Under the pieces are notes generated by a model, which had not been told where the DNA came from, made no database searches, and worked only from the letters and a program-made list of their open reading frames with translations. From NCBI RefSeq assembly GCF_008326305.1, contig NZ_BIXY01000079.1, positions 1 to 34,221 of the forward strand: 34,221 bases of DNA. Reading direction: 5' to 3'. This DNA comes from Dictyobacter arantiisoli (GTDB taxonomy: Bacteria > Chloroflexota > Ktedonobacteria > Ktedonobacterales > Ktedonobacteraceae). How positions within the stretch are numbered: position 1 is the stretch's first letter; every line of letters starts with the position of its first letter. Shown here piece after piece: positions 11,767-34,221 of the stretch. A program made the translations under genes and the position numbers.

Positions 11767-11865
11767 AGACGCATTCATATCTCACTCCGTAGAACGATGG
11801 AAGCAATGATACAAGTAAAAACCATATTCTACACAATCTAAGAAGCAAGCGAGGAGAAAATTATT

Positions 11866-12651
11866 ATGTCTATGCTCTATAAATATCCCCGCACACCGCA
11901 TGTGGAAGGTTCGGGCATACAACGCGGCGACGAAGATTTGAGGATGTTGCCTCTACGCGAGTTACCTGGACACTATGTGGTGGTTGAGGAGAAGGTGGAT
12001 GGGGCCAATAGCGCGCTTAGCTTTACCGAGGATGGTCAGCTATTATTGCAAAGCCGGGGCCATTATCTCAGCGGTGGTCCCAGAGAGGTGCAATTCCAGT
12101 TGCTAAAAAGCTGGGCCCATAGCCATAGCGCGGCCTTCTGGGATGTGCTGATGGATCGCTATATTCTCTATGGCGAATGGCTCTATGCCAAACATACGGT
12201 CTTTTATACAGCGCTCCCCCATTATTTCCTGGAGTTCGATATCTATGATAAACAAACAGGCACCTTTTTGAGTACAGCAAAGCGCCGCGCCTTGCTGGCA
12301 CAATTACCGTTTGTATGCTCGGTCAGAGTGCTCTTTGAAGGACAACTTCAGAGTACGCAGCAATTACTTGCTCTCCTCACCCGCTCTCCTTATATCGAGT
12401 ATAATCATCTAGAACAACTACGTGAGTTGTGTACGAAAAAGCATCTCAATAGCGAGCAGGCATTGAAAGAGACTGATCCCAGTACCTTGATGGAGGGTCT
12501 GTATATCAAGATAGAGACCAGCGAGAGTGTACAGGAACGCTGGAAATATGTGCGCGCTGGCTTTCAGCAGGCCATGCAAGAGTCAGAGAGCCACTGGATG
12601 AATCGTCCGATTATCCCTAATCTCTTGAGCAAAACGGCCTCGCTCTTTTGA
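11866..12651 (+). CDS. RNA ligase family protein (Rnl2-like nucleotidyltransferase)
   Basis: The 261-residue product is an ATP-dependent RNA ligase core. The nucleotidyltransferase motifs appear in order: motif I VEEKVDGANS with the lysine that would be adenylated (about residue 45), motif Ia LLQSRGHY, motif III YILYGEWLYAKH, motif IIIa YFLEFDIYD, motif IV LMEGLYIKIE and motif V ERWKYVR. There is no long C-terminal extension, so this is a compact enzyme. A GAGGAG ribosome site precedes ATG 11866. It should seal 3'-OH/5'-phosphate nicks in RNA. The next gene encodes an HD phosphoesterase/polynucleotide kinase that would produce exactly such ends, so the pair looks like a repair cassette. Confidence 0.9.
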   Translation: MSMLYKYPRTPHVEGSGIQRGDEDLRMLPLRELPGHYVVVEEKVDGANSALSFTEDGQLLLQSRGHYLSGGPREVQFQLLKSWAHSHSAAFWDVLMDRYILYGEWLYAKHTVFYTALPHYFLEFDIYDKQTGTFLSTAKRRALLAQLPFVCSVRVLFEGQLQSTQQLLALLTRSPYIEYNHLEQLRELCTKKHLNSEQALKETDPSTLMEGLYIKIETSESVQERWKYVRAGFQQAMQESESHWMNRPIIPNLLSKTASLF

Positions 12652-12714
12652 GGCGCAGTAATCAATTACTGATGATAAGCAATAGAAAAGTTAGTATGAA
12701 CAGAGAAAGATTAA

Positions 12715-13896
12715 ATGATGTCGAAATTGCATGACCCGGCAAGCATACAAAAACAACAGGATAGCTCTTTCCCTTTTTGTCCCGATCCAGCCCAGGGATG
12801 GAAACTCGACTGGGAGGGCGTCCAGCAGCAGTTTTCCTGGATACGTGCCATGGATGGTGTTCCTCAATATCCAGCCTATCATGCGGAAGGGAATGTACTG
12901 ATCCATACGCATATGGTGGCTGATGCTCTGACACAACTGGCTGAATGGCGCGCTTTACCTGCAATGGAACGGACAATCCTCTTCGCCTCCGCGCTGCTGC
13001 ATGATGTCGCTAAACCTGTGTGCACAAAAATTGAGCCGGATGGCATGATCAGTTCCCGTGGACATGCACGCCGAGGCGAGTTTATAGCTCGCCGTATCCT
13101 CTGGACAGGCACGGAACTGGCTGCTCCTGTCCCCTTTATCGCACGCGAATATATCGCGCGCCTGGTACGCTGGCATGGTTTGCCACTGCAATTCTTGAAT
13201 CGCGCCCATCCAGAGAAAGCCGTGATTGAGGCCAGCCAGAGTATTCGGATGGATCATCTGGCGTTGCTTTCTGAGGCCGATGTGCGTGGTCGTATCTGTG
13301 CCGATCAGGCAGAGCTACTGGAGCGGGTGGAGCTGTTCCGTCTCCTCTGTCAGGAACAACAGTGCTATGACGCACCATATGCCTTTGCTACTCCCTATAG
13401 CCGCTTTGTGTATCTGCACGACGAGAAGGGTGATCCCAATTATCAAGCTTACGACGATACGCAAAGCGAGGTCATACTTATGGCTGGATTGCCCGGGGCG
13501 GGGAAAGATATCTGGTTGCAGAACCACGGTCCCGATTGGCCGGTAATCTCGCTGGATGGGATACGCAAAGAATTGAAGGTCACCGCTACCGATGACCAGG
13601 GGCATGTGGTCCAGCTGGCCCGTGAACGAGCACGAGAATATATGCGCCAGGAACGTTCATTTGTCTGGAATGCGACCAATACGACACGAATGTTGCGCCG
13701 TCAATTGATTGATTTTTTTATATCTTATGGAAATCGCACTCATATTGTATACATTGACACCCCTTATAACGTCTTATTACAGAGAAACAATGAAAGGCAT
13801 GCAAATCTTCCTGAAGAGATTATTGAAAAGTTAGTGGACAAATTAGAGGTTCCAGATATCACAGAAGCACATCAAGTGGAGTGGATACAGCAGTAA
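12715..13896 (+). CDS. HD phosphoesterase-polynucleotide kinase fusion (HD-Pnk-like)
   Basis: The 393-residue protein has an HD domain (about 40-200) and a P-loop kinase domain (about 245-390). HD metal ligands are seen in IHTHMVADAL, ALLHDVAKP, RGHARRGEFI, RLVRWHGLP and LLSEADVRGRI. The kinase has Walker A as GLPGAGKD, the Asp-x-x-Arg motif ISLDGIRKEL and a lid NNERHANLP; the usual Ser/Thr after the P-loop Lys is Asp here. This matches the published architecture of HD-Pnk, in which the HD part removes 2',3'-cyclic or 3' phosphates and the kinase phosphorylates 5'-OH ends. It follows the RNA ligase gene by 63 bases on the same strand. Confidence 0.88.
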   Translation: MMSKLHDPASIQKQQDSSFPFCPDPAQGWKLDWEGVQQQFSWIRAMDGVPQYPAYHAEGNVLIHTHMVADALTQLAEWRALPAMERTILFASALLHDVAKPVCTKIEPDGMISSRGHARRGEFIARRILWTGTELAAPVPFIAREYIARLVRWHGLPLQFLNRAHPEKAVIEASQSIRMDHLALLSEADVRGRICADQAELLERVELFRLLCQEQQCYDAPYAFATPYSRFVYLHDEKGDPNYQAYDDTQSEVILMAGLPGAGKDIWLQNHGPDWPVISLDGIRKELKVTATDDQGHVVQLARERAREYMRQERSFVWNATNTTRMLRRQLIDFFISYGNRTHIVYIDTPYNVLLQRNNERHANLPEEIIEKLVDKLEVPDITEAHQVEWIQQ

Positions 13897-31664: not shown

Positions 31665-31748
31665 GCCGAAGTGGTGAAATTGGTAGACACGCAACGTTCA
31701 GGGCGTTGTGCTCGCAAGGGCATGGGGGTTCGAGTCCCCCCTTCGGCA
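31665..31748 (+). tRNA. tRNA-Leu (anticodon CAG), copy 1
   Basis: An 84-base class II tRNA: acceptor GCCGAAG pairs with CTTCGGC, discriminator A. The anticodon arm CAACG-TTCAGGG-CGTTG has CAG in the middle (reads CUG). A long variable arm (TGCTCGCAAGGGCA) and the T-arm GGGGGTTCGAGTCCCCC follow. CCA is not encoded. Confidence 0.97.
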
Positions 31749-31762
31749 CTCATATTTCTACA

Positions 31763-31923: not shown

Positions 31924-32013
<90 letters not shown>

Positions 32014-33878: not shown

Positions 33879-34014
33879 AAGTGTTTTTCTGATTTGGAAT
33901 TTTGAACCACTGAAACGTGCATTTCCTCAATTTTGCCGAGCGCCTGTTTGTCAGCTTCGTTGAAGCAGACGACGCGCCATCCATTGCAGAGCCACGATGA
34001 AGATACAAATGTGT

Positions 34015-34221
34015 GAAACAAGCCGTACGATCATTAGGGCGGCTTCGCTGCACCTGTTACCAGGCTTGCACGTGCCGTCTATCAACCAGGTGTTCTGCCT
34101 GGGATCTTGATCTCACGAAGAGATGGGAAAACTTATCTTGGGTGCGGCTTCGCGCTTAGATGCCTTCAGCGCTTATCCCTTCTCGACATAGCTATCCAGC
34201 TCTGGCCCGGGCGGGCCAACT
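34015..34221 (-). rRNA. 23S ribosomal RNA, 3' end (partial)
   Basis: On the minus strand the window opens inside domain VI of 23S rRNA. GGATAAGCGCTGAAGGCATC, then AAGCGCGAAGCC, and GATCCCAGGCAGAACACCTG followed by GTTGATAGACGGCACGTGCA match the conserved bacterial order. The gene continues to the right beyond the window. The exact 3' end is set near 34015 by eye and may be off by about 20 bases. No 5S gene follows before the terminator. Confidence 0.9.

Follow-up and report, generated by a model that had tools for sequence, protein, structure and literature searches.

What purpose could be served by a compact RNA ligase whose gene is followed, on the same strand, by that of a protein combining an HD phosphoesterase with a polynucleotide kinase, and would the broken ends handled by such a pair be those of RNA or those of DNA? 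The question is raised by a stretch of 34,221 nucleotides of the Dictyobacter arantiisoli genome (contig NZ_BIXY01000079.1), hereafter referred to as the window, for which an earlier note, drawn up from the letters alone, had described the two genes as an RNA-repair cassette. This description proved accurate as regards domains, gene order and strand, and both reading frames lie exactly where the note had placed them (Table 1), the spacing between them being 63 bp. The pair is flanked by genes encoding an F420-dependent PPOX protein and an oligopeptide-binding protein; the promoter and terminator scans yielded sites no more numerous than those found in shuffles, and PADLOC has no model for either of the two products. 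In the same window two tRNA-Leu(CAG) genes having equal scores are located 174 bp apart (31665-31749 and 31924-32007), ~2 kb from a 23S rRNA 3′ end (34014-34221, opposite strand).

Table 1. Positions in the window of the ligase and HD-Pnk genes and of their main elements
Feature	Positions	Strand	Basis or remark
GAGGAG ribosome-binding site	11851..11856	+	9 bases 5′ of the ligase ATG, read directly
ATP-dependent RNA ligase (PF09414), 261 aa	11866..12651	+	nucleotidyltransferase domain and short conserved C-terminal tail
Ligase motif I, E-E-K-V-D-G-A-N, with predicted adenylylated lysine K43	11986..12009	+	motif conservation and DRB0100 K40 (PMC1997131)
HD-Pnk, N-terminal HD phosphoesterase and C-terminal P-loop polynucleotide 5′-kinase, 393 aa	12715..13896	+	Pfam, structure model
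HD domain, residues ~16-217, putative metal ligands H64, H96-D97, D189	12760..13365	+	Z 18.1 to 3wfo (tRNA processing enzyme)
Polynucleotide kinase domain, residues ~250-393; P-loop G258-K264, SLDxxR D281/R284, R328, R361	13462..13893	+	structure match
P-loop GLPGAGKD, Walker A Ser/Thr replaced by Asp (D265)	13486..13509	+	homologue alignment

The product of the upstream gene matches the RNA_ligase family (PF09414, E 7.6e-34), which is its sole Pfam match; the lack of T4_Rnl2_C indicates that this enzyme is not Rnl2 proper, and the model of the latter domain is a working one, since it detects the second ligase present at the Pseudobacteroides locus (L069). Alignment of 102 homologues bears out the statement of the earlier note that the full set of nucleotidyltransferase motifs is present: motifs I (KxDGxN), Ia, III, IIIa, IV (EG...K) and V are all recognizable, the residues E42, K43, D45, G46 and N48 of motif I being invariant together with R64, H66, G103-E104 (III), E210-G211 (IV), K227 and R230 (V). 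Searches by sequence, even with a profile and at E values up to 1, retrieved no solved structure for the ligase.

The downstream product consists of an HD domain followed by a P-loop kinase in a single chain of ~400 amino acids. Its kinase half is readily assigned by Pfam (AAA_33, E 3.1e-21, residues 253-380), while the HD call is just significant (23.0 bits vs a cut-off of 22.0, residues 61-158); this weak call is made firm by the family profile, which retrieves from the PDB the HD domains of 3wfo and its relatives, enzymes of the A/CCA-adding type (E 8e-10), and by the AlphaFold2 model of the protein (pLDDT 94.2, pTM 0.92), whose residues 14-217 align with tRNA A/CCA-adding enzymes over 177 residues (Z 18). 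The C-terminal half of the same model resembles the Pnk of C. thermocellum (Z 17) and that of T4 (Z 15), as well as Pnkp1 of the Pnkp1-Rnl-Hen1 complex.

The active-site residues of both halves are complete. In the 89 homologues aligned, H56, H64, H96, D97, K100 and H117 of the HD half are invariant and D189 is found in 88, the window protein included, so that the H, HD and D metal ligands of the HD superfamily are all present. The kinase half has the P-loop lysine, the general-base aspartate, the arginine of SLDxxR and the lid arginines, with G258, G263, K264 and D281 conserved in 89/89 sequences and R284, R328 and R361 in 88/89; D189 and the three arginines differ solely where a sequence is gapped. 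One HD-Pnk (L049:2457-3257) is ~105 residues shorter in its HD half, the position of D189 being included in the missing part, and is possibly phosphoesterase-dead. A peculiarity of the family is the replacement of the Walker A Ser/Thr by Asp (GKD) in 82 of the 89 homologues, that of the window among them, whereas the Deinococcus HD-Pnk whose kinase activity has been published has an ordinary GKS; the residue following this Asp is Thr in 67 of the 89 but Ile in the window. Owing to this combination of Asp and Ile, the kinase activity expected of the window variant is deduced from the conservation of the family.

Is the adjacency of the two genes a property of this genome or of the enzymes? Conserved adjacency in relatives had been set beforehand as a check on the proposal, and the outcome was strongly positive. 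Of 80 loci from named genomes that carry the ligase, 74 have HD-Pnk as the next gene downstream in the same orientation, with a gap not exceeding 286 bp and with frequent overlap; in two further loci (L069 and L087) it is found within 1.2 kb, a second ligase-like gene being interposed, in one it lies on the opposite strand and in three it is absent from the stretch. These 80 loci span at least seven phyla (Chloroflexota, Cyanobacteriota, Bacillota, Bacteroidota, Planctomycetota, Acidobacteriota and Actinomycetota), and Pseudomonadota and Deinococcota join them when copies on plasmids are counted. Of 301 evenly sampled Chloroflexota genomes, nine encode a close homologue of the ligase, a tenth giving a weak match; in eight of these nine HD-Pnk adjoins the ligase in the same orientation, the gaps being shorter than 150 bp except for one of 1.4 kb, and in the remaining genome ligase and HD-Pnk are separated by 147 kb. 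Furthermore, the two proteins co-diverge, their pairwise distances being correlated with r 0.78, a value reached by none of 500 permutations (permutation maximum 0.21). Both genes are under purifying selection, as indicated by a dN of ~0.19-0.20 against a saturated dS in the comparison of the window with its nearest relative.

The pair also travels. On a Pseudomonas aeruginosa plasmid it is located between two IS21 copies (L156:4962-6980), and it occurs as such on two viral contigs (L141 and L142). Phage contigs (L134-L148) carry the ligase mostly without HD-Pnk; among the 16 viral loci that encode this ligase, however, a calcineurin-like phosphoesterase family is found nearby in 11 and a P-loop kinase family in 12, so that the healing enzymes appear to have been swapped rather than lost.

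Taken with the predicted functions of the domains, this conserved adjacency supports the heal-and-seal logic put forward in the earlier note, and the ligase and HD-Pnk probably constitute an RNA-repair cassette. A structured RNA, most plausibly tRNA or rRNA, would be cut by a metal-independent ribonuclease or suffer some other insult leaving a 2′,3′-cyclic phosphate and a 5′-OH; the HD domain would take off the cyclic or 3′-phosphate to give a 3′-OH/2′-OH end and the P-loop domain would phosphorylate the 5′-OH, after which the ligase, having adenylylated itself at K43, would transfer AMP to the 5′-phosphate and seal the nick. The enzymatic activities, the choice of RNA and not DNA as the substrate and the nucleolytic origin of the damage are what we infer from the evidence presented here, and the anticodon nucleases or toxins named in the earlier note are conjectural sources of such damage. 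Against this reading count the inability of the distant homologue DRB0100 of Deinococcus radiodurans to ligate nicked DNA, a DNA-RNA hybrid or single-stranded RNA (PMC1997131), the atypical P-loop of the window kinase and the three ligase loci of 80 that have no HD-Pnk in the stretch. The cassette deserves attention for its wide distribution and its deep conservation as one unit, the more so as none of the results considered here, those on the Deinococcus protein included, shows sealing by this ligase clade.

A possible elaboration of this cassette is offered by its relatives. Among the 80 loci, 25 from at least six phyla have a gene for a methyltransferase of ~235 amino acids that directly precedes the ligase gene and shares its strand (e.g., L056:5226-5996, L111:2626-3327 and L060:5258-6004, with 22 further loci). 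In 28 aligned sequences K84, R91, the SAM loop, the ExxEH motif (E178, E181, H182) and H215 are invariant, and E178, E181, H182 and H215 align with the ExxEH...H of Hen1 proteins from Chloroflexota, the residues by which Hen1 binds its metal. The ExxEH motif is common among UbiG-like enzymes, and a profile search of the PDB returned Hen1 mixed among many other enzymes; since the Foldseek matches listed for the structure model are generic small-molecule methyltransferases with no Hen1 among them, the Hen1-like reading is drawn from the aligned residues only. No methyltransferase gene lies beside the window ligase, and the search of the window genome for a close homologue of the upstream methyltransferase gave generic matches only (best 30% identity, E 2e-8).

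In the Pnkp/Hen1 system the ligase depends on Hen1 (PMC4411300), and the methyltransferase-bearing form of the cassette suggests a reason why earlier sealing tests may have failed. It is conceivable, if on balance doubtful, that the pair lies at the heart of a third system of “repair with immunity”, independent of Pnkp/Hen1 in its assembly, in which the upstream methyltransferase would 2′-O-methylate the healed 3′ end before sealing and thereby make the repaired RNA resistant to recutting; the lineage of the window, which has the two-gene form with no methyltransferase beside it, might then borrow Hen1 from its separate Pnkp/Hen1 operon. The methyltransferase-bearing form makes the question of the substrate a testable one.

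Could the substrate be DNA instead? HD-Pnk enzymes reportedly accept DNA ends in addition to those of RNA (Munir and Shuman), and the pair might serve to mend the 3′-phosphate/5′-OH nicks caused in DNA by oxidative damage or radiation, an explanation that we consider improbable. It has a precedent in the homologous DRB0098-DRB0100 operon of Deinococcus radiodurans, whose expression rises strongly upon exposure to ionising radiation and for which a role in DNA repair was the original proposal (PMC1997131, PMC1978522). Disruption of DRB0100, however, left radiation resistance intact (PMC1978522), and no DNA ligation was obtained with its product, either alone or together with the two other proteins of the operon (PMC1997131). 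To these data must be added that the window ligase belongs to the PF09414 RNA_ligase family and that the neighbours of the pair in its relatives are RNA-end enzymes. Six cyanobacterial loci encode, two genes downstream of the ligase, a family of ~1000-aa proteins in one member of which (L070:8247-11258) the domains were read, namely an MJ1316 RNA cyclic-end recognition domain, an endonuclease/exonuclease/phosphatase, a 2H phosphoesterase and a poly(A)-polymerase-like domain; in Pseudobacteroides the pair is flanked by Thg1, by a second kinase and by the T4_Rnl2_C-bearing second RNA ligase mentioned above, an arrangement that agrees with published Thg1-kinase-ligase neighbourhoods (PMC2904730). 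These neighbours, and with them the upstream methyltransferase of 25 of the 80 loci, speak for RNA as the substrate.

An RNA ligase, on the other hand, need not be a repair enzyme, since an archaeal ATP-dependent RNA ligase circularises box C/D RNAs (PMC9014305). The possibility that the pair joins purposely made ends, for instance in circularising or splicing a specific RNA, nevertheless strikes us as likewise improbable, because its patchy presence (nine of the 301 Chloroflexota genomes) and its occurrence on plasmids, once between insertion sequences, and on viral contigs give it the look of a dispensable function in stress or conflict and not of a housekeeping one; moreover, no RNA gene was detected next to the two genes of the window. 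Two last readings are ruled out, chance adjacency by the 74 loci of 80 and a pseudogene by the intactness of all active-site residues and the low dN.

If RNA repair is the function of the cassette, it would not be discharged by this cassette alone. The earlier note had rightly remarked that neither a toxin nor RtcB adjoins the pair; RtcB is encoded elsewhere in the window genome (G000), on contig C80, and the pair does not belong to the RtcB pathway as far as the locus is concerned. The same genome has a complete Hen1-Pnkp operon (contig C42; L165:4517-8553) and one toxin of the MazF/PemK type. The earlier note takes account neither of these other repair systems of the genome nor of the methyltransferase encoded upstream in relatives. 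Neither MJ1316 nor AAA_13, the family of the PrrC-type anticodon nucleases, was found in this genome. The presence of RtcB, of the Hen1-Pnkp operon and of the MazF/PemK-type toxin renders damage of the ribotoxin type plausible and implies that the cassette is not the only answer to it; the ligase/HD-Pnk pair is likely the third RNA-repair route of the window genome. A genome endowed with RtcB, Pnkp/Hen1 and ligase/HD-Pnk offers a natural setting in which to learn how three routes divide the work.

The closest of the known systems is that of D. radiodurans, where DRB0100-DRB0099-DRB0098 (ligase, macro/PARG-like protein and HD-Pnk) form a homologous locus with the same gene order. DRB0100 is homologous to the window ligase (profile E 6e-17) and DRB0098 to the window HD-Pnk (29% identity over 87% of the query); the Deinococcus ligase, however, is shorter (210 aa) and without several of the residues conserved in the clade of the window, and the macro-fold gene that separates ligase and HD-Pnk in D. 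radiodurans has no counterpart between the two genes of the window. The product of this gene has been interpreted as a PARG by which ends of RNA or DNA that carry ADP-ribose might be freed (2025, PMC11833690). D. taeanensis has a two-gene form in which the genes overlap. As to activities, DRB0100 forms a lysyl-AMP adduct on its motif I lysine, K40, and DRB0098 displayed 5′-kinase activity, its 3′-phosphatase activity not being resolved (PMC1997131).

In the Pnkp1-Rnl-Hen1 and Pnkp-Hen1 systems (PMC4411300) the labour is split in the same way among kinase, phosphatase and ligase, to which a methyltransferase is added as in relatives of the window pair, and the kinase domain of Pnkp1-Rnl-Hen1 has the same fold as that of the window. 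Unlike these systems, the window protein has an HD domain instead of a calcineurin-type phosphatase and the order HD-kinase, its ligase partner belongs to a different clade, and neither a calcineurin-type phosphatase nor a Hen1 methyltransferase is found beside the pair. With T4 Pnkp and Rnl1 the window pair shares the distribution of end-healing and sealing between separate proteins and the kinase fold. In T4 Pnkp, however, a HAD phosphatase follows the kinase, while in the window HD precedes it, and Rnl1 is a ligase of another family.

A close likeness of the window HD-Pnk, by description, is the enzyme of Runella slithyformis, in which HD and kinase follow one another in one chain of similar size and for which 2′,3′-phosphoesterase and 5′-kinase activities were reportedly found (Munir and Shuman, J Bacteriol); the window protein, for its part, has Asp in the P-loop. 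According to the same authors, HD-Pnk has a wide distribution among bacteria and its gene often shares an operon with that of a putative ATP-dependent ligase; such a ligase neighbour, common though not universal, is found in the window as well. Thus, in view of the homologous DRB0100-0099-0098 locus and of the description of the Runella HD-Pnk, the Dictyobacter pair belongs to a kind already described.
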